Assembly (NCBI RefSeq): GCF_020149915.1
Contig: NZ_CP083760.1
Location: forward strand, 1,364,001 to 1,428,000
Direction of reading: 5' to 3'
Source: Candidatus Sulfidibacterium hydrothermale
Lineage (GTDB): Bacteria > Bacteroidota > Bacteroidia > Bacteroidales > F082
Length of the DNA stretch: 64,000 nucleotides
Positions 54,404 to 63,644 of this stretch are shown here, in pieces. The first letter of the stretch is position 1, and each line of letters opens with the position of its first letter. Under the pieces are notes generated by a model. It was not told the DNA's origin and searched no databases. It saw only the letters and a list, made by a program, of their open reading frames with translations. The translations under genes and the position numbers were made by a program.

Positions 54404-54423
54404 ATCAATCCTTTCCTTATAAT

Positions 54424-54455
54424 AAAAAAAGGCTGCCTTTCGGCGGCCTTTTTTT
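54424..54455. terminator. Bidirectional terminator between convergent operons
   Basis: AAAAAAAGGCTGCC-TTTC-GGCGGCCTTTTTTT stem flanked by A- and T-runs, so it can stop both the DHOD-like gene (plus) and the inositol-lipid operon (minus), whose last stop codon is 3 bases away. Confidence 0.88.
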
Positions 54456-54458
54456 ATT

Positions 54459-55388
54459 TTATATCATGGAGGCAAAGTCGGAAAGCCATTTTTTGAATGG
54501 CATTTTATTGGCTATTTTTTCAAAGATAAAGATGCCGGTAACGGCAAGTGAAGCGCCGGCAATGACATCAATTACGTAATGATGGCCGGTATAAACTGCC
54601 GAGAACCAAATCCCTAACAGAAAAATGACAAAGAAAATATTAAACCATCCCAGTTTTTTCTTTATGGCGTAATACAAAACTATTACCGGATAAGAAGCAT
54701 GTAAAGAAGGCATGGCAGCCAGTACATTGGCATTCTTCTCATAAAGTGCTTTAAAAACATTCCATCCCGTAATCTGGTCAAAACGGGCCAGTCCGGCCAT
54801 GTGCCCATGAACTCCCGGTTGGAAATGGAAACCATAAATTTCCACATACCAGGGCGGAGCTTCCGGGTAGAGATAGTAAATGACAAATCCCATCAGGTTG
54901 ACCAATAGAAAAACAAGTGAAAACCGGGTGAAAAGGTTTTTGTCCTTGAAATACAGGTAAACGGCAAAAGCAATGGGCACCGGAACCCAGTTTAAATAAA
55001 ACAGGCCGGTGAGGATATCCAGAAATTTGGTGTGAATAAGGTTAAAGAATTCGTTGGGCGTAAGCAGCTTGCCCTGGTAAGTAATGCCAAACAATGCTTT
55101 TTCCAGTTCGTAGGGTTGCCGGATGTGTACGGGAGAAACTTTGTAATTGGGAAGTCCGCGCATAGAATCGTAAACAATCCAGTACACGATAAAAATGGAA
55201 AATCCTAAAGCAAATTTCCGGGTGGCAGGATGCAGGTAGTATAGTGTAAACCAGAGAACAACAAGAAGAAAATGACCGGTTTGCGGCCCGCCGATCAGGA
55301 AATTCCACAGGAGATATACAAGGGCCAAAGTGCTATTGATCAGTAGGTTCTTTTTTGTAAACCGTATGAACTGCGTCGATTCTTTCAT
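54459..55388 (-). CDS. PAP2-superfamily membrane transferase, inositol phosphorylceramide synthase-like
   Basis: Integral membrane protein with six or seven helices and PAP2-type catalytic motifs: AMPSLHASYPV (first His) and YTGHHYVIDVIAG (second His and Asp). The layout, with SLHASYP and GHHYVIDV and an upstream GLPNYKVSPVH segment, follows the AUR1/inositol phosphorylceramide synthase group rather than small PAP2 phosphatases. Such enzymes move phosphoinositol from phosphatidylinositol to ceramide, releasing diacylglycerol. It is the last gene of an operon that also makes inositol phosphate and phosphatidylinositol, so the substrate fits. 309 residues. A simpler lipid-phosphatase role is the alternative. 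Confidence 0.85.
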   Translation of the reverse strand: MKESTQFIRFTKKNLLINSTLALVYLLWNFLIGGPQTGHFLLVVLWFTLYYLHPATRKFALGFSIFIVYWIVYDSMRGLPNYKVSPVHIRQPYELEKALFGITYQGKLLTPNEFFNLIHTKFLDILTGLFYLNWVPVPIAFAVYLYFKDKNLFTRFSLVFLLVNLMGFVIYYLYPEAPPWYVEIYGFHFQPGVHGHMAGLARFDQITGWNVFKALYEKNANVLAAMPSLHASYPVIVLYYAIKKKLGWFNIFFVIFLLGIWFSAVYTGHHYVIDVIAGASLAVTGIFIFEKIANKMPFKKWLSDFASMI

Positions 55389-55436
55389 GCTTTTATCTAT
55401 TTTTCTTCCATGATGTGATTTATCCCGATCTTGCCG

Positions 55437-55988
55437 TTATTCGGTAATCATTTTTTCGTAAACGTTTTTTTTCGTTTTGGGATTGATACCGAAAAGTTCC
55501 ACATATTTTACTTTAGGCCAGAAACCGGAATTGTCGGCATAAATATAAATGTGATCCAATATGGCATTCTGCCCGTCGATGGTTGTATAAATTATGGCTT
55601 TGAAAGGAGCAATTTGTTTCAGGAGAAAATCTCTTTTGTCGGTGGCAACCAAATCAACTTTATATTCGCCTGGTTTTCCTTTTATAGGGGTAGTTTTTAC
55701 GCCGTAGGCAAACATTTTTTCAACCGTTCTGAGCGGCATGGTCTGGCCGTGTTCCTGATACCTGATCCAATAAACATGTACCGGGTTATTGGACTTTAAG
55801 CGACCCTGTTTGTCAAAATTGGCATCGTACACAATAGTATTTTCATTGTGATTCCGTTGGATATAAAAAAGCCGTTTGAATGTTTTTGGCGGAACCGGAT
55901 ATTTCGGGTTTTCTGCTAATCGCATCGGTGACCAAAACAGGCTGAAAAGCATGGTCAGGACAAAAGTTGTTTTGGTAATGCTTATCAT
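55437..55988 (-). CDS. DUF4833-type exported protein, unknown function
   Basis: 183 residues with a signal peptide (MISITKTTFVLTMLFSLFWS) and a soluble domain with LFYIQRNHNENTIVYDAN, NPVHVYWIRYQEHGQ and LDHIYIYADNSGFWPKVKYVELFG, the pattern of DUF4833. The start overlaps the stop of the SDR gene by ATGA. It is found here between the reductase and the PAP2-type transferase. A periplasmic accessory or lipid-handling role is inferred only from the neighbours. Confidence 0.8.
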   Translation of the reverse strand: MISITKTTFVLTMLFSLFWSPMRLAENPKYPVPPKTFKRLFYIQRNHNENTIVYDANFDKQGRLKSNNPVHVYWIRYQEHGQTMPLRTVEKMFAYGVKTTPIKGKPGEYKVDLVATDKRDFLLKQIAPFKAIIYTTIDGQNAILDHIYIYADNSGFWPKVKYVELFGINPKTKKNVYEKMITE

Positions 55989-56977
55989 AACAATTTCTCT
56001 TTTTTAAACCATGCGATGGCATGGCGGATTCCTTTTTCCAGATCGTATTTTGGCTGAAACCCAAAATCTTTTACCAGCTCATCGGCATTGCACAGCCAGT
56101 TTTTACTTACAAGCTCTTTGTATTTGTCGCTGTTAAGCGTGGCTGGTTTTCCGAATAAACAGGAAATCTTTTCGGTGATGGCTACCACGGTACGAACAAA
56201 AAACCGGGGGAAAACAATCACCACTGTTTTTTTATTTAATTCTTTTTTTATCAGGGCATTGAAAGCTTCTGCAGTATAGTGTCCCAAATCGGTTACAAAA
56301 TATGCTTTGCGGGTAATGTCTGTTGCCAGCACATCCATAACCAGGGTAGCCAAATCGAGAACATAGATGAAGGAAAGATGTTGTTTTTTGGAGCCGATAT
56401 AGGTTTCGATATGTTGTTTGATAGATTTGTAAGCCAGATAGTAATCTTTTTCTCTTGGACCATAAACGCCGGTGGGACGCAGGATAAGATATGGAAAATG
56501 ATCTTGTGCCTGTAAAAATTGTTCGGCTTTTAGTTTGCTTCTTCCGTAATAGGTAATCGGGTGGGGGGTATCGGTGGGCTGTATGGGCTGCAGGGTGGTT
56601 TCGTCTCCCGGGCCATAGGCTGCCAGACTGCTGATGAACAAAAATTTATCAGGAACCTTTTGGGTTTCGATTAACGCTTCAATCAAATTTTTTGTGTATC
56701 CGAAATTAACTTTGTCAAAATGCTCAACCTGGCACGTTTTAATAATGCCGGCAGCATGTACGATATAATGAAACCGGGGTAAATCCTGAAAAGTTTTTTT
56801 TAAGTCCTCTTTATCTGCAAAATTTAATTCGGTAAAATGTATATCGGGATGAGACAGATATTTCCGACTACTGGTTTTTCTTATCCCGGCATAAACCTCA
56901 AACTGACGTTTTATGGCTTCTTCAACAATAAAACTTCCCACAAAACCACTTGCGCCTGTTACCAATATCCGTTTCAT
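55985..56977 (-). CDS. NAD(P)-dependent epimerase/reductase (extended SDR), candidate sphingoid-base reductase
   Basis: Rossmann-fold enzyme with the cofactor motif TGASGFVG at the N-terminus, the dinucleotide and substrate region HAAGIIKTC, and catalytic Tyr-x3-Lys in YYGRSKLKAE. The start is taken at 56977 (MKRILVTGASGFVG) because its ATG overlaps the acyltransferase stop by ATGA. 330 residues. Extended SDRs of this kind act in bacterial sphingolipid synthesis, as ceramide reductase in Caulobacter and 3-ketosphinganine reductase in Bacteroides. Its place next to a GNAT-fold acyltransferase and an inositol phosphorylceramide synthase-like gene makes that role likely here, but the sequence alone does not prove the substrate. 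Confidence 0.85.
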   Translation of the reverse strand: MKRILVTGASGFVGSFIVEEAIKRQFEVYAGIRKTSSRKYLSHPDIHFTELNFADKEDLKKTFQDLPRFHYIVHAAGIIKTCQVEHFDKVNFGYTKNLIEALIETQKVPDKFLFISSLAAYGPGDETTLQPIQPTDTPHPITYYGRSKLKAEQFLQAQDHFPYLILRPTGVYGPREKDYYLAYKSIKQHIETYIGSKKQHLSFIYVLDLATLVMDVLATDITRKAYFVTDLGHYTAEAFNALIKKELNKKTVVIVFPRFFVRTVVAITEKISCLFGKPATLNSDKYKELVSKNWLCNADELVKDFGFQPKYDLEKGIRHAIAWFKKEKLL

Positions 56978-58101
56978 ATTCCTTTTTTGATATAACATCT
57001 TCGTTTAAGGTGTTGTCTCAGCTCATAATCTTTGAACATCAGAAAAGCACTCTTGTTGTCTTCCAGCGCATGGCTCGAAATGGCTGTTTTTACTCCGTTG
57101 TCAATATAGGCTTGCATCATTTCGCTATAAAAAACGGCTGGAATCCCTTTGTTTTGGTATTGGGGTTTTACCGCTTGCAACAGCATGTCTACTTTGTCAT
57201 TCTTTTTCAGTGCTTTCAAAATATGAATGAATCCGAACGGAAACAGTTTCCCTTTTGCTTTTTGCAGCGCTTCGGAGAGCGAATACAAAGAAATGCCAAA
57301 ACCTACGACATCATCATCTTTATCGAGAACAAAGCAGACAAACCGCGGATCAATGGCCGAAAAATAATCTTTGGTATATTTTTCGATCTGTTTTTCGGTA
57401 AGCGGGACAAATCCGTATAACGACTGAAAAGCTTCATTTAACGTATGAAACATTTTTTTTGCGTAAGGCAGGAATTCTTTTGCCTTTTTTACCTCCAAAA
57501 CATGAAGGTTGTATTTCTGTAAAACCAATGACGAGATTCGTTTGATCTTATCCGGCACTTTATCCGGCACTTTAATTTCAAACTGTATCCAGTCTACATC
57601 CTTTACATAACCCAGTTTTTCAAGATGTTCCGGATAGTACGGGTAGTTGTATAGCGTAGCCTGGGTTCCTATTTCGTTAAATCCTTCTACCAACATCCCT
57701 TCAAGGTCCATATCCGAAAAGCCCAGCGGACCATGAACGGCTTCCATTCCTTTTTCTTTTGCCCAGTTTTCTACAGCCTGAATCAGTGCTTTTGAAACTT
57801 CGATGTCGTCAATAAAATCAATCCATCCGAAACGCATGTGTTTTTCATTCCATATTTCGTTGGATTTGTGGTTGATAATGGCGGCTATTCGTCCGACAAT
57901 TTTGTTGTCTTTGTAAGCCAGCCAGTACCGGGCCTCACAAAAGTCAAATGCCGGATTCTTTTTGGGGGATAAGGTAGCCTTTTCAAACATGTGGAGTTGG
58001 GGAACACGGTATTTGTTTCCTTTGTAAAGTTTATCCGGAAAGGCGATGAATTTTTTCAGGTCGGCCTTTGATTTTACCTCTTTGATAACAACGTTTTCCA
58101 T
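56974..58101 (-). CDS. GNAT-fold acyltransferase, candidate bacterial ceramide synthase
   Basis: 375-residue protein, long for a GNAT acetyltransferase. The N-terminal part has ARYWLAYKDNKIVGRIAAII, the acyl-CoA-binding beta4 pattern, followed by FGWIDFIDDIEVSKALIQAV and EAVHGPLGFSDMDLEGML, which define a Bacteroidota family. The C-terminal half forms a second GNAT-like lobe (FVCFVLDKDDDVVGFGISLY). Bacterial ceramide synthases (bCerS) are large GNAT-fold acyl-CoA-dependent N-acyltransferases, and this gene is translationally coupled to an SDR in an inositol-lipid operon. The N-acylation of a sphingoid base is therefore the leading hypothesis. A different amine substrate cannot be excluded. 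Confidence 0.8.
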   Translation of the reverse strand: MENVVIKEVKSKADLKKFIAFPDKLYKGNKYRVPQLHMFEKATLSPKKNPAFDFCEARYWLAYKDNKIVGRIAAIINHKSNEIWNEKHMRFGWIDFIDDIEVSKALIQAVENWAKEKGMEAVHGPLGFSDMDLEGMLVEGFNEIGTQATLYNYPYYPEHLEKLGYVKDVDWIQFEIKVPDKVPDKIKRISSLVLQKYNLHVLEVKKAKEFLPYAKKMFHTLNEAFQSLYGFVPLTEKQIEKYTKDYFSAIDPRFVCFVLDKDDDVVGFGISLYSLSEALQKAKGKLFPFGFIHILKALKKNDKVDMLLQAVKPQYQNKGIPAVFYSEMMQAYIDNGVKTAISSHALEDNKSAFLMFKDYELRQHLKRRCYIKKGI

Positions 58102-58164
58102 GGTAAATAAAGTTTAAAGTTAGACATCTTTGGAACCCCCAATATTAATCATTTCATAGATAGT

Positions 58165-60720
58165 TTAAAAATCAAATTTAAATCGTGCTCTGATTCCATA
58201 TTCTGCCACATGCGGATTATCAAGATAGGTAAACCGTTTTACCAAATCGACCCTGAAAAATTTAAAAATGTTGCCAATGCCCACGCTGCCTTCAATGTAT
58301 GGCGTGTCTTTTAGGATAAAGGTAGTCGGATTGCCATCGGCATCGGTAGGAAACTGCATCAGTCCGGGTGTGACTTCCGGATTGTTTTTGTCGGAAAGTC
58401 CACCGTAAAGTACTTTTACTGAAATGATCGAACGCCATTTTAATTTCTTTATTAAAGGAATCTTATTCAGGATGTAGCCGTTGAAATGATGCTCAAGGAA
58501 AAAGCTGACATATTTGTCATTGGCAAATTCAAGGAAGTTCATCATGTTGTACGACCGGAGCTGGTACGAGTAGGTTTGGTTAGCCCGTGGGATGTCCAGC
58601 AACGGAAAAGGAACTTCCCCGAAAATTTTCCCTACTTCCACTTCCGAATTCAAAAAGCCGAACGGAGCCACATAAAAACGTTTGAAAGCATCCAGCGTAA
58701 CCCGCGTGTAAGAATAATCAGAACTAAATAACCCTTTTATTCCCTGGGTTATTGATACCTGAAAGATGGGTTTGTTGGTGATGATGGGAATGCGATAGTC
58801 CATGCCCTGATAAAACTTTTCGTCCGGTGCAAAGCGGAAACGGGCCGTGATCTCGCTTTCTGTAATCGAACTGACGGTATGGCCGTCTTCGTAGGTAAAA
58901 TAAAGTGTTCCGCCCGGTTCCTGATTGATATTCCGGAAAAGTATATCGGTGGAAAAACCATCAGGCCAGTCTTTGTAATGTTCGATCTTAAACATCCGGT
59001 TATACAGGATTTTGTCGGCAACACCCCGTTTAAACGAAAGTAAAAAGTTGTCTTCGTTGATAAACTGTACTTTCATTCCCGGGAAATTGGTTTCGTACTG
59101 GTATTGGATGGATAGATAGTTTTTGGGGTTGTCTTTCAGTGGTTTGTGGTTGAGAGACATTGTCCCCATAATGGAATATTTGAATCGTTTGTCTTTGAAA
59201 CCATATACTCCGTAACCGCTGATGCGGAATGTTTTGCTGAATTTATCGCTGGTACGGGCCCCCAAACGCAACCTGAAACCTTCCACATCATTAAAGCTGT
59301 AAAAAGTATTTACCGGACCGACATCGATTTTGTTGAAATTCCAGTATCCGGCCACAAACAGCATGATGATGTTCATCGTTCTTTTAAAAGCGGGGACGTT
59401 TTGAACACTGTCCACCATCACATAGATGTTTTTCTCTTTGGGACTAAGCTTTGTAAGTCGTTTCTTGGTCCAAAAAGAAGGAGGCCTGTTTTTATATCCG
59501 GGCAGATAGACGGTTTCGTCTGCTCCTTTGAAAACCGAATCGGCGGGCGCTTTGTTAAAGGTGAAATTCCCGTAATCCACTGTTTTTCGGCCAATCATTC
59601 CCGCCCCTTTTTTGGTGAGGTTAAAATCAACCACCAACTGATCTTTGGTGAGCATCCAAACTTTGTTGTTTATAAACGAAAACTCTTGAATCAGATGAAG
59701 ATAAGTAACGAAATTGAGGTTGATCTGTCGCGGTACATGCATGTCGGCTTTCACAATGGCATACCGGTTGTCGTTAGTAATATAAAGACTGCCGATGAAA
59801 GCAAAGCTCTGTTTGTTTCGCGGAACAAAATCCACTTTTATACAATTATAACCGTTTACGTCTAAGGTGTCCGTAATCCGGAATTTGTACACCGAAGGTG
59901 CAATAGTCGAAACCGGGCTGACAAACGGGTTGGTGAGCAGCATGATGGTGTTGTCGTAAATGTTAATGTCCTGGAACATATTTTGGACAATGAATCCAAC
60001 GCCTTGATTGTCAATATATTCGTGAAAACCGGTCATTTTACTCCCTAAAACATAGACCCGTTTTTTGGGAGGAGATTTTCTGAAAAATACTTCCGATCGT
60101 GTTTCCTTTAAAAATACCGGCAGATAAACTTTTCCGTTTCGTTGGGAAGTGTCGGTATAATTAAAAATGAAATGAATCTTTTTAAAGATTTTTTTGTTTT
60201 CGTAAGCATCAGTGATGTTATTGATGTCAAATTCATTTTTTTCATACTTGTCGTAACTGTAGTAATCCAGAGAGCCTTGCCGGTTTCGTTTTTTGTTGGC
60301 GATAACTTTTTTAATTAAGGCCACGGCAGGGTTGTTCTTGTTCCGGTATCTTTTTCTTTTGCCTTTGATGACCAGTTCGTTCAGCTGTATGTTTTTTTGT
60401 TTAAGCCGGAAATTGATTACCTGGCTTTTCCCGGGACGTACATTTTTTGTCATGGTATAATACCCGATGTAGGAAGTTTGTAACTGATGAACATCTTTTT
60501 TGGTCATCAGCGAGTATTTTCCATTGATATCGGTCATGGTACCAATGGTCGTTCCCACAAAAACTACATTCACAAAAGGAAGTGGTTTCCGGGTACGGGC
60601 ATCGATAACGCTTCCCCTTACTACCGTGATGTTTTGCGCCCGGACAAACCAAGGCTGCAAGACAAAAATCAGGGTAAATAAACCCACCCAGGCCGATGCT
60701 GTGATTCCTTTTCTCCTCAT
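58165..60720 (-). CDS. CarboxypepD_reg/DUF5686 probable outer-membrane barrel protein
   Basis: 851 residues from ATG 60720 (MRRKGITASAWVGLF), a signal peptide ending near VRAQ; a longer frame to 60792 is less likely. Residues about 32-110 are a carboxypeptidase-D-like beta-sandwich (VVRGSVIDARTRKPLPFVNV, IGTMTDINGKYSL), and the remainder is strand-rich DUF5686 sequence. The C-terminus reads YGIRARFKFDF; a terminal Phe preceded by alternating residues is the usual barrel-insertion signal of outer-membrane proteins. So it is probably an outer-membrane beta-barrel. The family's function is not established. Its place inside a lipid-synthesis operon suggests a role in surface lipid placement or export. 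Confidence 0.85.
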   Translation of the reverse strand: MRRKGITASAWVGLFTLIFVLQPWFVRAQNITVVRGSVIDARTRKPLPFVNVVFVGTTIGTMTDINGKYSLMTKKDVHQLQTSYIGYYTMTKNVRPGKSQVINFRLKQKNIQLNELVIKGKRKRYRNKNNPAVALIKKVIANKKRNRQGSLDYYSYDKYEKNEFDINNITDAYENKKIFKKIHFIFNYTDTSQRNGKVYLPVFLKETRSEVFFRKSPPKKRVYVLGSKMTGFHEYIDNQGVGFIVQNMFQDINIYDNTIMLLTNPFVSPVSTIAPSVYKFRITDTLDVNGYNCIKVDFVPRNKQSFAFIGSLYITNDNRYAIVKADMHVPRQINLNFVTYLHLIQEFSFINNKVWMLTKDQLVVDFNLTKKGAGMIGRKTVDYGNFTFNKAPADSVFKGADETVYLPGYKNRPPSFWTKKRLTKLSPKEKNIYVMVDSVQNVPAFKRTMNIIMLFVAGYWNFNKIDVGPVNTFYSFNDVEGFRLRLGARTSDKFSKTFRISGYGVYGFKDKRFKYSIMGTMSLNHKPLKDNPKNYLSIQYQYETNFPGMKVQFINEDNFLLSFKRGVADKILYNRMFKIEHYKDWPDGFSTDILFRNINQEPGGTLYFTYEDGHTVSSITESEITARFRFAPDEKFYQGMDYRIPIITNKPIFQVSITQGIKGLFSSDYSYTRVTLDAFKRFYVAPFGFLNSEVEVGKIFGEVPFPLLDIPRANQTYSYQLRSYNMMNFLEFANDKYVSFFLEHHFNGYILNKIPLIKKLKWRSIISVKVLYGGLSDKNNPEVTPGLMQFPTDADGNPTTFILKDTPYIEGSVGIGNIFKFFRVDLVKRFTYLDNPHVAEYGIRARFKFDF

Positions 60721-60739
60721 ACTTTTTTCCCTGCCCGTT

Positions 60740-61135
60740 TTACCTGAATACAAAATGTTTGTGCATGAAAAAGTTAAAGCCAATTCCCACAATTACTGAA
60801 ACTGTAACTTTTCCAATGATATATTGAAACCCGAAGACGGTTACAATGAAATATAAACCGGCTGTGTTTAACAAGATACTTGAGATCCACACCAGTAAAA
60901 ACCGCATAGCTTGTCCGGACAATTTTCCGTCACTTCGTTTAAATGTCCATGACCGCTCCAAAAGGAAGGCCGTTATCCCGCCAAAAACAAGACCGACAAA
61001 AGATGCAAGCAAATACCAAACGTGTCCGATTTCCAACAGAAACAAAAACAGGGTATAATCTACCGCTGTAGCAGTTACTGCTGAAGTATTAAACCGCAAA
61101 AGAGTATAAATATTTTGTCGTGTAGCTGCCATCAT
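60740..61135 (-). CDS. GtrA-family small membrane protein
   Basis: 131 residues with four membrane helices (VDYTLFLFLLEIGHVW, LLASFVGLVFGGITAFLLE, FLLVWISSILLNTAGLYFI and TVSVIVGIGFNFFMHKHFVF), the GtrA/DPMS-like pattern. GtrA proteins are thought to flip polyprenyl-phosphate sugars or related lipids. The start overlaps the PgpA-like stop by ATGA, so it is part of the same operon; flipping of an inositol lipid or its precursor would fit, as inference. Confidence 0.85.
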   Translation of the reverse strand: MMAATRQNIYTLLRFNTSAVTATAVDYTLFLFLLEIGHVWYLLASFVGLVFGGITAFLLERSWTFKRSDGKLSGQAMRFLLVWISSILLNTAGLYFIVTVFGFQYIIGKVTVSVIVGIGFNFFMHKHFVFR

Positions 61136-61608
61136 AAAACTTTAAAATGGAGAAGAAGTTGAAGAACAACAAGAGCATACACTCCGGCCAGCATATCGTC
61201 CAGCATGACGCTCCAGTCATTTTTCAGTTTGTCAATTTTTCGGATAAATAACGGTTTATAAATATCAAACAACCGGAAAAGGATGAACGCGTACAAATAG
61301 TATTGCCAACGGAGCGGAAGGGCATAAGCGGCAATCCATACCCCGACAATTTCATCAATAACAATAGTTTGCGCGTCATGTTCCCAGGTTTGATGTACTT
61401 TTTTGATGCTGTAAACACCGAGCCACGAGATTAACAAAATGACGATCAGCTGGGAAACCGGAATCCACACCGGATCCACGTGAAGTGCATAGAGCTCCTG
61501 GTTAAAACCATAAAATAAGAGTATGCCAAGAGCAGCTCCTGCAGTACCCGGAGCAACGGGAAAATAACCGGTTCCCAACCCTGATGCCGTCAGTTTGTAA
61601 AGATTCAT
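61132..61608 (-). CDS. PgpA-like phosphatase, candidate phosphatidylinositol-phosphate phosphatase
   Basis: 158-residue membrane protein of the PgpA (phosphatidylglycerophosphatase A) family: GLGTGYFPVAPGTAGAALG at the N-terminus, VIDEIVGVWIA in the middle and the metal-binding VMLDDMLAGVYA near the C-terminus. In inositol-lipid clusters of Bacteroides a PgpA-like enzyme dephosphorylates phosphatidylinositol phosphate to phosphatidylinositol. The gene begins directly after the stop of inositol-phosphate synthase (TAA then ATG) and is followed by gtrA with an ATGA overlap, so that role is favoured over phosphatidylglycerol synthesis. Confidence 0.87.
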   Translation of the reverse strand: MNLYKLTASGLGTGYFPVAPGTAGAALGILLFYGFNQELYALHVDPVWIPVSQLIVILLISWLGVYSIKKVHQTWEHDAQTIVIDEIVGVWIAAYALPLRWQYYLYAFILFRLFDIYKPLFIRKIDKLKNDWSVMLDDMLAGVYALVVLQLLLHFKVL

Positions 61609-62931
61609 TTAGTGTTCGTCTTCGTAATAATCCAGTCCGAGATGGGTGATCAGTTCTTCTCCCATCAAATGGCGCAGTGTGTTTTCAAATTTTATTTTCT
61701 GCAGGAAAATATCATGAATCGGTCGCAATCCTTCTTTGGTTTGCGGTGATTTGAAATAGAACGAAAGCCATTCCTGTATTCCTTTCATCCCGGCACGTTG
61801 AGCCAAATCCATAAACAAGGCCAGATCCAAAACTACCGGAGCAGCCAAAATGGAGTCTTTACACAAGAAGTTTACTTTGATTTGCATTTTGTATCCTAAC
61901 CAGCCGAAAATATCAATGTTATCCCAGCTTTCTTTGTCGTCGCCTTTTGGAGGATAATAATTGATCCGTACTTTATGATACATGTCTTTGTATAATTCCG
62001 GATATTTTTCGGGCTCCAGCACACTGTCGAGTACGCTAAGTTTTGAAACTTCCTTGGTTTTGAATGAGCCGGCATCATCCAATACTTCACCGTCACGGTT
62101 TCCGAGAATGTTTGTGGAGAACCATCCGTTAATGCCTAATAAACGGGCTTTTAAACCAGGACCGAGAATGGTTTTCATCAGGGTTTGTCCGGTTTTAAAG
62201 TCTTTTCCTGCAATGGGAAGACCTTCTTTATGTGCCAGTTCCACAATGGCAGGAACATCATTGGTAAGGTTTGGAGCGCCGTTTACGTAAGGAACACCGC
62301 TTTTTAATGCGGCATAGGCATAAATCATACTGGGTGAAATTCCGGGATCATTGTTTTCCAATCCTTTTTCAAAATTTTCCAGTGTTTGGTGTACATCAGA
62401 CACTTCAACATATACTTCGGTAGAAGCGGTCCAAATCATGATCAACCGGCTGCAACCGTTTTTTTCTTTAAAGCGGGCGATGTCGTCCATCACTGCCTGG
62501 GCCAGCTCCATCTTGGTGGGGGCTTTTTTTACATGTACGCCATGTAATCTTTTTACGTAATCCGGATCAAAAACGGCAGGCATGGGTTCAACAGCCGAAA
62601 GCTCGTCTTTGATTTTATTGAGTAAATCTTTTTCAAGTACTCCGGCATTTAGCGCCGCTTCGTAAGCATTATCTTTAAAAATATCCCAACCGCCAAAAAC
62701 AATATCATCTAACGATGCCAAAGGGACAAAATCTTTTACTGCCGGTTCACGATTCTCGGTACGTTTTCCCAGCCTTATTTTCCCCATTTGAGAGATTGAA
62801 CCCACGGGACGGCCCAAATCTTTCCGGGCAGCAAAAACACCGGCCATAAAAGTGGTAGATACAGCGCCGATTCCCGGCATAAGGATTCCTAATTTCCCTT
62901 TGGGTTCCTGAATGTCTTTTCCTATTTTCAT
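61609..62931 (-). CDS. Myo-inositol-3-phosphate synthase
   Basis: Converts glucose-6-phosphate to inositol-3-phosphate with bound NAD. The N-terminal Rossmann motif is GILMPGIGAVSTTFMAGV, and family regions LNAGVLEKD, NGAPNLTNDVPAIVELAHKEG, AGKDFKTGQTLMKTILGPGL, NTLGNRDG-like LGNRDGEVLDD and YYPPKGDDKESWDNID are all present. 440 residues matches the prokaryotic form. The gene lies between the CDP-alcohol transferase and PgpA-like genes and supplies the inositol head group for the lipid pathway encoded around it. Confidence 0.94.
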   Translation of the reverse strand: MKIGKDIQEPKGKLGILMPGIGAVSTTFMAGVFAARKDLGRPVGSISQMGKIRLGKRTENREPAVKDFVPLASLDDIVFGGWDIFKDNAYEAALNAGVLEKDLLNKIKDELSAVEPMPAVFDPDYVKRLHGVHVKKAPTKMELAQAVMDDIARFKEKNGCSRLIMIWTASTEVYVEVSDVHQTLENFEKGLENNDPGISPSMIYAYAALKSGVPYVNGAPNLTNDVPAIVELAHKEGLPIAGKDFKTGQTLMKTILGPGLKARLLGINGWFSTNILGNRDGEVLDDAGSFKTKEVSKLSVLDSVLEPEKYPELYKDMYHKVRINYYPPKGDDKESWDNIDIFGWLGYKMQIKVNFLCKDSILAAPVVLDLALFMDLAQRAGMKGIQEWLSFYFKSPQTKEGLRPIHDIFLQKIKFENTLRHLMGEELITHLGLDYYEDEH

Positions 62932-62951
62932 TTTAATTGATGTTTAAATAA

Positions 62952-63644
62952 TTACATTATTTTTTTGCAATGATGCAGTCGTTGCCATGCGGTATAATTC
63001 GTAAGAATGGCCATCACAAAGATGGGAATGGTAAAAAAGGAGATGTTTTCGAATAACGGAAACGGTAGCCAGTTTACCGTGATTTTAAAAGTGCCTAAAT
63101 AGAAAGATATGATACCATATACAATGGCACTGATCCCGATAGTAAGAACTCTTTCCGGACGTTGCATGAGCCCTACTTTACATTCAAAACCCAGCCCCTC
63201 GGCACGTGCACGAATGTAACTTACCATAATAGAGCCAATCATGGCCAGAAAGGTGAAAACCGAACTTAAAAAGTAGTGAAACGATACCAAATAATAAGCA
63301 ATGCCAAAAAACATGACCAGTTCGCTGTACCGGTCGATTGTGGAATCGTATAGTGCGCCAAAAGCCGTTTTTTTGTTGGTTTTTCGTGCCAGCTGTCCGT
63401 CAAGCATGTCAAAAATGCCCGCTGATAATAGTACAATACCAAACCAGAAAATATACCGGTAATCATTTCGGTTTCCCGTGTTGGCACCATGAATCAGGAT
63501 GATTGTCGAACCAATAGTTATTAAAAAACCAATGGTGGTAATGGCGTTAGGAGTAATTCCGGTTTTTGCCAGTATGTTAATTGCCGGGTTGAGTGCGTTA
63601 TAAGCACTTTTTTTCAACAGATTCCAGTAGTTGCCTTTTTTCAT
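62952..63644 (-). CDS. CDP-alcohol phosphatidyltransferase, candidate phosphatidylinositol-phosphate synthase
   Basis: Transfers the phosphatidyl group of CDP-diacylglycerol to an alcohol. The full signature is seen: Asp-x2-Asp-Gly-x2-Ala-Arg-x8-Gly-x3-Asp-x3-Asp, written DMLDGQLAR, then eight residues, then GALYDSTID. Membrane helices flank it, and 230 residues is typical. As first gene of the operon, directly before inositol-3-phosphate synthase, it most likely uses inositol-3-phosphate to make phosphatidylinositol phosphate, as in Bacteroides and actinobacteria. Use of glycerol phosphate is the alternative, less favoured by context. Confidence 0.92.
   Translation of the reverse strand: MKKGNYWNLLKKSAYNALNPAINILAKTGITPNAITTIGFLITIGSTIILIHGANTGNRNDYRYIFWFGIVLLSAGIFDMLDGQLARKTNKKTAFGALYDSTIDRYSELVMFFGIAYYLVSFHYFLSSVFTFLAMIGSIMVSYIRARAEGLGFECKVGLMQRPERVLTIGISAIVYGIISFYLGTFKITVNWLPFPLFENISFFTIPIFVMAILTNYTAWQRLHHCKKIM

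Follow-up and report, generated by a model that had tools for sequence, protein, structure and literature searches.

A nine-gene operon of Candidatus Sulfidibacterium hydrothermale predicted to make phosphoinositol dihydroceramide

The stretch of DNA analyzed here, referred to below as the window, is 64,000 nucleotides long, and nine minus-strand open reading frames (ORFs), all intact and co-directional, fill its positions 54459 to 63644 (Table 1). Reading of the ORFs agreed with the tight spacing of the nine genes described in the initial annotation. The mips and pgpA genes meet at a TAA-ATG junction with a gap of 0, as had been noted, but there are three ATGA overlaps rather than the four reported, located at pgpA/gtrA, gnat/sdr (SDR start at 56977), and sdr/duf4833. 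The remaining intergenic gaps are 20, 19, 63, and 48 bp. The strong bidirectional terminator proposed to close the operon was also evident, as a hairpin between the operon and the convergent gene 55 bp away; it is flanked by A/U tracts on both sides, and the two strands fold at -23.6 and -20.9 kcal/mol. Profile matches recovered each of the domain names given earlier, namely, CDP-OH_P_transf, Myo-inositol-1-P synthase, PgpA, GtrA, CarboxypepD_reg with DUF5686, GNAT, SDR/Epimerase, DUF4833, and PAP2_3. The operon has a GC content of 41.1% and the remainder of the window one of 44.1%, and, in the order sample, the four genomes of the same family gave no match to the PAP2-type IPC synthase; these two observations raised the possibility that the operon was gained horizontally.

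Table 1. Features of the operon and its surroundings, in the direction of transcription (window coordinates)
Feature	Position	Strand	Evidence or remark
PIPS, phosphatidylinositol-phosphate synthase (CDP-alcohol phosphatidyltransferase)	62952..63644	-	Operon's first gene; NF052561, motif, PDB
MIPS, myo-inositol-phosphate synthase	61609..62931	-	PF07994 348.8 bits; PDB 7nwr E 1.2e-169
PgpA-family phosphatase, probably PIP-DAG to PI-DAG as BT_1525	61132..61608	-	PF04608 136.6 bits
GtrA-family membrane protein, as BT_1524	60740..61135	-	PF04138 72 bits
DUF5686 protein, CarboxypepD_reg plus predicted Omp85/TamA-like outer-membrane barrel	58165..60720	-	PF18939 203 bits, PF13715 73.5 bits
Gap between GNAT and DUF5686 (SPT slot in same-order relatives)	58102..58164	-	63 bp
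GNAT-family N-acyltransferase, probable ceramide synthase (bCerS type)	56974..58101	-	YghO homology; SPT-linked tree set
SDR, probable (keto)ceramide reductase (CerR type)	55985..56977	-	ORF extendable to 56998
DUF4833, small all-beta protein with N-terminal signal-like helix, candidate periplasmic accessory	55437..55988	-	PF16117 151.1 bits
PAP2-type phosphoinositol dihydroceramide (IPC) synthase	54459..55388	-	NF052609 319.3 bits; PSLH, HHYVID
Bidirectional intrinsic terminator	54404..54458	.	Hairpin about 54425-54455; sequence and fold

Six of the genes match by family the inositol phosphoceramide cluster of Bacteroides thetaiotaomicron, described as BT_1522 to BT_1526 with the neighbor BT_1527, where knockouts of core genes are reported to abolish IPC and/or PI (PMC9246714, PMC8791184). 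The inositol branch put forward in the initial annotation has in this cluster a genetically proven counterpart. As described for B. thetaiotaomicron, the two loci share clustered genes for MIPS, a PgpA-type PIP phosphatase, GtrA, PIPS, and an AUR1-like IPC synthase, and a carboxypeptidase-regulatory-like protein lies nearby in both, a likeness drawn from descriptions and not from a protein alignment. The window differs in adding GNAT, SDR, and DUF4833 and in having the barrel gene inside the run. We read the operon, with a probability of about 0.8, as a phosphoinositol dihydroceramide operon that also carries the GNAT and SDR steps of ceramide formation, the product being predicted from the genes alone.

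The same gene order was found again in many Bacteroidota loci, beyond chance, which is the result that a synteny search had been proposed to look for, and this recurrence supports the earlier suggestion that the five other genes (barrel protein, GtrA, GNAT, SDR, and DUF4833) belong to the same system. Twenty-six of 114 loci (24 distinct) combine SPT, GNAT, SDR, and the inositol branch, seven enzymes in all, the commonest order being that of the window with an SPT added between the GNAT and the barrel gene. To the initial annotation the arrangement had appeared more complete than known short clusters; the relatives do have a fuller operon, but that of the window, taken alone, lacks SPT. In sum, the initial annotation is partly supported: family matches favor its inositol branch and synteny its gene membership, and its completeness claim for this operon alone and its overlap count are corrected. 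ORFs in all loci were called by a simple longest-ORF script. The 80 named loci rank highest, out of 389 relatives, in similarity to the DUF4833 of the window, so this sample leans to the window's type. Four loci (L093, L095, L096, and L145) have contigs as long as those of L043, L041, L047, and L044, respectively; L093 and L096 were dropped from the complete-locus count, and duplicates stay in the motif and fusion counts given below. A set chosen by IPC synthase comprised 34 loci, the window's own included, and L031, L035, L037, and L048 were left out of its tallies because the script gave no IPC-synthase ORF there, though the genome search had placed one. SPT, GNAT, and SDR stand together in only 7 of 30 such loci; a contig end or the 20-kb limit truncates some of the remainder. 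Among 14 IPC-synthase genomes of the phylum sample, which were not chosen by DUF4833, 12 contain the SPT family and 7 have an SPT within 11 kb of the IPC synthase. No SPT matched at the cut-off used in the other two, G249 and G391, and, as the genome searches scored few first-look candidates per genome (at most five for IPC synthase and at most four for SPT), such absences are no proof.

The GNAT and SDR, rightly placed in the operon by the initial annotation, can be described further as ceramide synthase- and reductase-like, and their relationship to these bacterial enzymes is new in this analysis. Full-length homology to YghO, the acyltransferase of the Escherichia coli BL21 sphingolipid cluster as reported in PMC9386255, makes the GNAT a probable ceramide synthase-type N-acyltransferase (29.2% identity over 377 aa, E 4e-45). 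It is of the same family as the acyltransferases of the proteobacterial clusters but of a different subfamily, and no relative with a solved structure was found at E 0.1. The SDR, which carries the YxxSK motif as YGRSK and is 26.4% identical over 322 aa (E 1e-30) to the epimerase of the BL21 cluster, is a probable CerR-type (keto)ceramide reductase; the CerR of Caulobacter is described as periplasmic (PMC11087976). In published accounts of Caulobacter (CC_1162-1165 and CC_1154) and E. coli BL21 (ECD_02850-02854), an N-acyltransferase and an SDR/epimerase are linked to SPT (PMC9386255). The BL21 pair is homologous to that of the window, but its cluster carries a dedicated ACP and a fatty acyl-AMP ligase and is without inositol genes. 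SPT is adjacent in 22 of 25 rows of the tree set to which the operon GNAT belongs, the other three being a contig edge, one further locus, and the window itself, where the operon has no SPT and the slot is only a 63-bp gap. The genome's only strong SPT, which scores 620.9 bits where the cut-off is 640, is at 530 kb, about 0.9 Mb off.

There is another reading, which we consider unlikely though the strongest of the alternatives: the operon would make PI/IPC as in Bacteroides, its GNAT and SDR would act on the inositol lipid or in the synthesis of some other lipid, and ceramide would come from the 530-kb SPT working with either the GNAT and SDR found at 1.87 Mb or a reductase of the BT_0972 type. 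The GNAT at 1.87 Mb, which has a PAP2 protein and an SDR as neighbors, is the closest YghO homolog among the GNATs of the genome (37.6% versus 29%), and ceramide synthesis may therefore not fall solely or mainly to the operon GNAT. Ketone reduction may likewise happen elsewhere than at the operon SDR, since BT_0972, another SDR, is reported to reduce 3-ketosphinganine in B. thetaiotaomicron (PMC9278070), and the Bacteroides cluster as set out in PMC9246714 is without GNAT and SDR. However, the prevailing SPT adjacency in the tree set argues for a ceramide role of the operon GNAT, none of the other SDRs of this genome that were compared (picked by similarity to the operon SDR) matches the E. 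coli epimerase as well as the operon SDR does, and SPT, GNAT, and SDR remain linked in loci without inositol genes.

It is very improbable that the operon is decaying and that its lost SPT is the sign of a pathway about to disappear. The SPT slot is occupied in relatives and four same-family genomes gave no IPC-synthase match, as mentioned above, but the nine ORFs are intact, an intact SPT is present elsewhere in the genome, and the catalytic motifs are retained. The operon PIPS has the full CDP-alcohol motif, D..DG..AR...G...D...D, at residue 79. Across the fetched relatives, this motif is found in 65 of 65 PIPS sequences and YxxSK in 56 of 57 SDRs, and the IPC synthases have PSLH in 75 of 75 and HHYxxD in 74 of 75.

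Profile searches had been proposed as a check on whether the CDP-alcohol transferase and the PAP2 protein fall in phosphatidylglycerol or undecaprenyl-phosphate families, and they favored the inositol assignment. PIPS matched NF052561 (PIPSynBT1523) best by far, at 298.8 bits versus 34.4 for PgsA, and its PDB matches are 6h53 and 6wm5 (E about 3e-18); NF052609 (phosphoinositol dihydroceramide synthase) was the single NCBIfam match of the PAP2 protein at E 0.001. The two scores are below the curated equivalog cut-offs of 350 for NF052561 and 480 for NF052609. MIPS is the sole match in the genome, the operon PgpA is the single PgpA match found, and the only other CDP-alcohol transferase has PssA as its best NCBIfam match, so a PI rather than a PG role fits. 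PgpA is named after phosphatidylglycerophosphatase and the PAP2 superfamily is broad, but these profiles, the adjoining MIPS, and the PssA-like second transferase make it very improbable that PIPS and PgpA serve ordinary phosphatidylglycerol synthesis with an undecaprenyl-pyrophosphate phosphatase as the PAP2 protein, and we reject this reading.

Under the preferred reading as a phosphoinositol dihydroceramide operon, MIPS would convert glucose-6-phosphate to inositol phosphate, PIPS would place it onto CDP-diacylglycerol, and the PgpA-type phosphatase would then yield PI, from which the PAP2-type synthase would transfer phosphoinositol onto dihydroceramide. The SPT encoded elsewhere would supply 3-ketosphinganine, to be N-acylated by the operon GNAT and reduced at the ketone by the operon SDR, in either order. 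DUF5686, DUF4833, and GtrA would be accessory envelope proteins, the first two perhaps helping to move or insert the finished sphingolipid. The family relations, gene order, and SPT location are read directly in the sequence; the inositol steps lean on B. thetaiotaomicron genetics, and N-acyl transfer and reduction on homology to proteobacterial enzymes plus the linkage to SPT.

B. thetaiotaomicron has its SPT, BT_0870, away from the IPC cluster. A 2024 paper describes the SPT, ceramide synthase, and reductase genes as not lying near one another in sphingolipid-producing Bacteroidota, though in other bacteria they are often clustered (PMC11334938). The window and many relatives have backbone and head-group genes in one operon, the window's own SPT excepted, and this sharing ties uncharacterized genes to the sphingolipid pathway: GNAT and SDR become candidate ceramide synthase and reductase for Bacteroidota, and transport of sphingolipids to the outer membrane becomes a role that can be tested for two candidate envelope proteins, DUF4833 and DUF5686. 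No report of a joint SPT, inositol phosphate synthase, and ceramide synthase operon was found in open-licence PMC papers; one may be in print elsewhere.

Loci without inositol genes also bring together SPT, GNAT, SDR, DUF4833, and a DUF5686-like protein, for example, beside aminoethylphosphonate genes, and these five have the appearance of a core for ceramide synthesis to which one head-group cassette or another can be joined. An alternative inositol lipid cluster, of the Bacteroides vulgatus/Prevotella type, consists of an NTP transferase, a CDP-alcohol transferase, and HAD, and its route is proposed to run via CDP-inositol (PMC9246714), in contrast to the PIPS/PgpA/PAP2 route of the window. 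Six Larkinella and Dyadobacter loci hold a cassette of that description with DUF4833, DUF5686, and SDR, five of them with a YghO-type GNAT.

The DUF5686 protein is the single PF18939 match in the genome. Its AF2 model (pLDDT 80.6) has a predicted TamA/BamA-like barrel, which in Foldseek matched TamA/BamA/SAM barrels, including 8us4 (E 7e-8, TM 0.61) and 4n74 (E 9e-7, TM 0.64), with both TM values for the barrel part only and normalized by the TamA barrel. No Pfam POTRA model matched at E 0.001, the N terminus being CarboxypepD_reg, and we therefore do not file the protein as Omp85. The strand pattern of its middle domain prompted a LolA-like reading, which we do not claim. For DUF4833 (AF2 pLDDT 88.3), a search for a known fold found none. 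Open-licence PMC papers yielded no mention of DUF4833 in their full text, and none of DUF5686, including in those on BT_1522, BT_1526, and BT_1527. A 2024 Caulobacter study states that neither a flippase nor a transporter had been identified for these lipids (PMC11087976). DUF5686 and DUF4833 are candidates for sphingolipid delivery to the outer membrane. The wider proposal is tentative and, we think, rather less probable than not: modular operons would join the five-gene core to swappable cassettes (MIPS/PIPS/PgpA/IPC synthase, CDP-inositol type, aminoethylphosphonate, or sulfatase-family transferase), and DUF5686, with its TamA-like barrel and own further domains, and DUF4833 would form a dedicated sphingolipid route to that membrane.

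The distribution of DUF4833 was examined in its own right. A role as an inositol-only factor is ruled out by its presence with SPT, GNAT, and SDR where loci show no inositol genes. A strictly sphingolipid role is unsupported, as 15 of 28 DUF4833 genomes in the phylum sample are missing from the SPT-genome list, in a tally counted by eye; two of the remaining 13, G105 and G381, have an SPT match of only about 490 bits. DUF4833 is fused to PIPS in 12 of 105 DUF4833 ORFs from the fetched loci. Ten f7/g10 loci were opened; nine contain a DUF4833 ORF, GtrA adjoins it in seven of those nine, and the gene after GtrA in L072, the sole one profiled, is a CDP-alcohol transferase. An 896-aa protein of another locus, L025, is DUF5916.

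Nine ORFs, all on the minus strand, filled the operon, as the initial annotation had described, and the convergent gene at its end is preceded by a hairpin flanked on either side by A/U tracts. The single TAA-ATG junction claimed there was likewise found, but three ATGA overlaps were counted and not four. Pfam profiles gave the order, as transcribed, of phosphatidylinositol-phosphate synthase (PIPS), myo-inositol-phosphate synthase (MIPS), PgpA, GtrA, a CarboxypepD_reg/DUF5686 protein, GNAT, SDR, DUF4833, and a PAP2 protein. The source contig is a single 3.27-Mb sequence, of which the window comprises bases 1364001 to 1428000. The operon is real and, judged from its sequence, probably functional for the synthesis of phosphoinositol dihydroceramide (IPC). 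We regard it as a variant of the known IPC cluster, the new part being the joining of ceramide backbone genes to head-group genes. Homology, motifs, gene order, the absence of serine palmitoyltransferase (SPT) from the operon, and the position of SPT elsewhere were established at the sequence level; the inositol and ceramide steps would be those carried over from experiments on homologues.

The MIPS matched PF07994 at 348.8 bits and, in the PDB, 7nwr (E 1.2e-169), which we take to be a Bacteroides thetaiotaomicron structure. The CDP-alcohol transferase scored best on NF052561 (PIPS, BT1523 type; 298.8 bits, cut-off 350), and the single NCBIfam match of the PAP2 protein was NF052609, phosphoinositol dihydroceramide synthase, at 319.3 bits against a cut-off of 480. 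The motifs of both proteins are intact in the window and in relatives; both scores lie below the curated cut-offs, so equivalog-level membership stays below threshold. Phosphatidylglycerol and undecaprenyl-phosphate families had been named at the outset as the alternative, and neither protein had its best match there. A phosphatidylglycerol role for the transferase and PgpA is further disfavored by the PgsA score of 34.4 bits and by the remainder of the genome, which holds one MIPS, one PgpA, and two CDP-alcohol transferases, the second being PssA-like (96 bits against a cut-off of 107). PMC9246714 and PMC8791184 show, by deletions in BT_1522 to BT_1526 of B. thetaiotaomicron, that PI and IPC are products of this cluster. 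In PMC9246714, the strain deleted for BT_1524 (GtrA) had wild-type-like inositol lipids by TLC; that paper also mentions a head-group fragment of phosphoinositol dihydroceramide at m/z 241. BT_1527, a carboxypeptidase-regulatory-like protein, is a neighbor of the cluster. With that neighbor included, six of the nine window genes have a described counterpart, matched by description and not by alignment.

For ceramide synthesis, PMC9386255 reports that E. coli BL21 requires yghO (acyltransferase) and ECD_02852 (epimerase), in the same cluster as spt, to make dihydroceramide. Compared with the BL21(DE3) cluster sequences, the window GNAT was 29.2% identical to YghO over 377 aa (E 4e-45) and the SDR 26.4% identical to the epimerase over 322 aa (E 1e-30), the best epimerase match among the own-genome SDRs compared, a set picked by similarity to the window SDR. 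A quick GNAT tree of 58 rows placed the window GNAT within a 25-row set (SH-aLRT 99), of which 22 directly adjoin SPT. However, the GNAT nearest YghO in this genome is another, at 1.87 Mb (37.6% identity) with a PAP2 protein and an SDR nearby, and in B. thetaiotaomicron the assays of PMC9278070 assign 3-ketosphinganine reduction to BT_0972; both count against a simple assignment of the operon GNAT and SDR to ceramide synthesis. For B. fragilis, PMC10865984 takes BF9343_4218 as its ceramide synthase reference and BF9343_4240 as its reductase reference. The PAP2_3 protein of that 1.87-Mb trio matched IPC synthase weakly (31 bits); the trio is possibly another ceramide-type lipid locus. The genes of L025 and L028 lie about 6 to 13 kb from an alpha-oxoamine synthase that scored 322.8 bits, far below the SPT cut-off of 640. 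This synthase could, we presume, serve sulfonolipid-type synthesis.

Coordinates of the features discussed; L-numbers denote loci fetched from relatives or from the organism's own genome
Feature	Locus	Coordinates	Source
Nine-gene operon	Window	54459-63644	
Strong SPT gene		529855-531075	Own genome
Second GNAT, PAP2_3 protein, OleD/HpnA-like SDR	L024	7888-11672	Own contig, ~1.870-1.874 Mb
Two short acyltransferase-looking ORFs, DUF5916 protein, two tandem window-family GNATs	L025; L028	2237-8564; 5601-6872	Own contig, ~1.186-1.200 Mb
Consecutive SPT-like gene, YghO-type GNAT, and annotated NAD(P)-dependent oxidoreductase	L067	6698-12290	Rubrobacter radiotolerans plasmid (actinobacterial)
PF04116 gene adjoining IPC synthase	L050; L053	10533-11183; 10636-11262	
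PIPS-DUF4833 fusions	L052; L060	8063-9400; 10722-12023	
262-aa ORF, 268-aa ORF, CDP-alcohol transferase, GtrA, DUF4833	L072	4628-8540	
Ceramide core, aminoethylphosphonate genes, CDP-alcohol transferase	L123	4070-16008	Puteibacter caeruleilacunae

The genome has one strong SPT (NF047600, 620.9 bits against a cut-off of 640), outside the operon. Relatives with the window's gene order carry SPT between GNAT and DUF5686, and in the window this gap is 63 bp, without SPT. After the Rubrobacter row comes a gene annotated as LTA synthase family.

The IPC synthase was found (E 1e-30 or better) in 14 of 395 genomes of the phylum sample and 23 of 393 of the order sample, and 33 regions around it were fetched, spanning up to 10 kb on each side. 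With the window's own, these made 34 IPC-synthase loci; one genome-contig scan with DUF4833 as query added the 80 highest-ranking of 389 loci, for a total of 114. SPT, a GNAT, SDR, MIPS, PIPS, PgpA, and IPC synthase occurred together in 26 of the 114 (24 distinct). Segetibacter koreensis, Chitinophaga silvisoli, and Foetidibacter luteolus are cultured relatives that carry this complete operon. Twelve of the 24 share the layout pips-mips-pgpA-gtrA-duf5686-spt-gnat-sdr-duf4833-ipcs, with duf5686 split into two ORFs in one, and one more lacks only duf4833. Eight show spt-gnatY-sdr-mips-pgpA-gtrA-duf5686-pips-duf4833-FAhyd-ipcs, including one without gtrA and duf4833 and one with a pips-duf4833 fusion; the remaining three have other gene orders. 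Differing GNAT subfamilies occupy the GNAT slot in the two main layouts. FAhyd denotes a fatty acid hydroxylase, assigned to PF04116 by profiling L050 and L053. This gene adjoins the IPC synthase in the Chitinophaga-type layout (those two loci, L127, and others), is absent from the window's layout, and possibly hydroxylates the ceramide chain. Among the 14 phylum genomes with the synthase, which are free of the DUF4833-scan bias, 12 have an SPT of the window's family; none was found in the other two (G249 and G391) at a threshold of E 1e-135. SPT lay <11 kb from the synthase in 7 of the 14, with distances judged by eye. Across 30 IPC-synthase loci, GNAT was present in 14, SDR in 10, SPT in 11, and all three in only 7, so clusters without the complete ceramide trio are also common.

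Other loci pair the ceramide genes with different head-group genes. In three loci, from Ancylomarina and a Marinifilaceae MAG (L115, L117, and L121), spt, gnat, sdr, and duf4833 come after a DUF5686-like gene and a 624- to 633-aa gene, the latter coding in L121 for a 633-aa sulfatase-family protein. Puteibacter has a DUF5686-like gene, spt, gnat, sdr, and duf4833, then a LysE-type protein, PEP mutase (421 bits) and phosphonopyruvate decarboxylase (463 bits), both above cut-off, a protein matching cytidylyltransferase/aminoethylphosphonate-aminotransferase, and a CDP-alcohol transferase. This locus reads as a candidate ceramide aminoethylphosphonate route. At these loci the DUF5686-like proteins share only 25 to 26% identity with the window's and were placed by phmmer, not Pfam. 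Six Larkinella/Dyadobacter loci hold an NTP-transferase/CDP-alcohol transferase/HAD cassette with DUF4833, DUF5686, and SDR, and a YghO-type GNAT in five. With its head-group genes differing across loci, the ceramide core looks independent of the head group.

The foremost lead is the two envelope proteins that accompany this core, DUF5686 and DUF4833, which would serve sphingolipid delivery. PMC11087976 places SPT and ceramide synthase of Caulobacter in the cytoplasm and the reductase in the periplasm, and states that flippases or transporters for these sphingolipids had not been identified. The operon gene is the only DUF5686 Pfam match in the genome. The C-terminal barrel of its model (pLDDT 80.6, pTM 0.68, 44 sequences) resembles TamA, BamA, SAM, and TOC barrels (115 matches at E 0.001 or better, families from the 50 best), with TM scores among those 50 of up to 0.64 by TamA-barrel length and 0.24 to 0.29 by whole query. 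The N terminus is a CarboxypepD_reg domain and no POTRA domain was seen in the protein, so from its model we term it Omp85-like and not an Omp85 member.

DUF4833 occurred in 28 of the 395 phylum genomes: nine of the 14 with IPC synthase, where it lies <2 kb from that gene, and 19 of the 381 without it (Fisher p 1.9e-8, the genomes not being independent). Apart from the signal-like helix and one further helix, its AlphaFold model (pLDDT 88.3, 64 sequences) is all-beta, and Foldseek gave no match at E 0.001 in the PDB or viral models. However, the list of genomes with a window-family SPT lacks 15 of the 28, and in the f7/g10 loci opened, DUF4833 adjoins GtrA in seven of nine and, where profiled, another CDP-alcohol transferase, which counts against a sphingolipid-only role. 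The row in L072 (transferase PF01066, profiled there) and like f7/g10 loci comes from genomes off the Bacteroidota-type SPT list and forms another CDP-alcohol lipid cluster with DUF4833. PIPS-DUF4833 fusions made up 12 of 105 DUF4833 ORFs, two of them confirmed by Pfam; ten loci besides L052 and L060 carry them, several in Hymenobacter and Chitinophaga.
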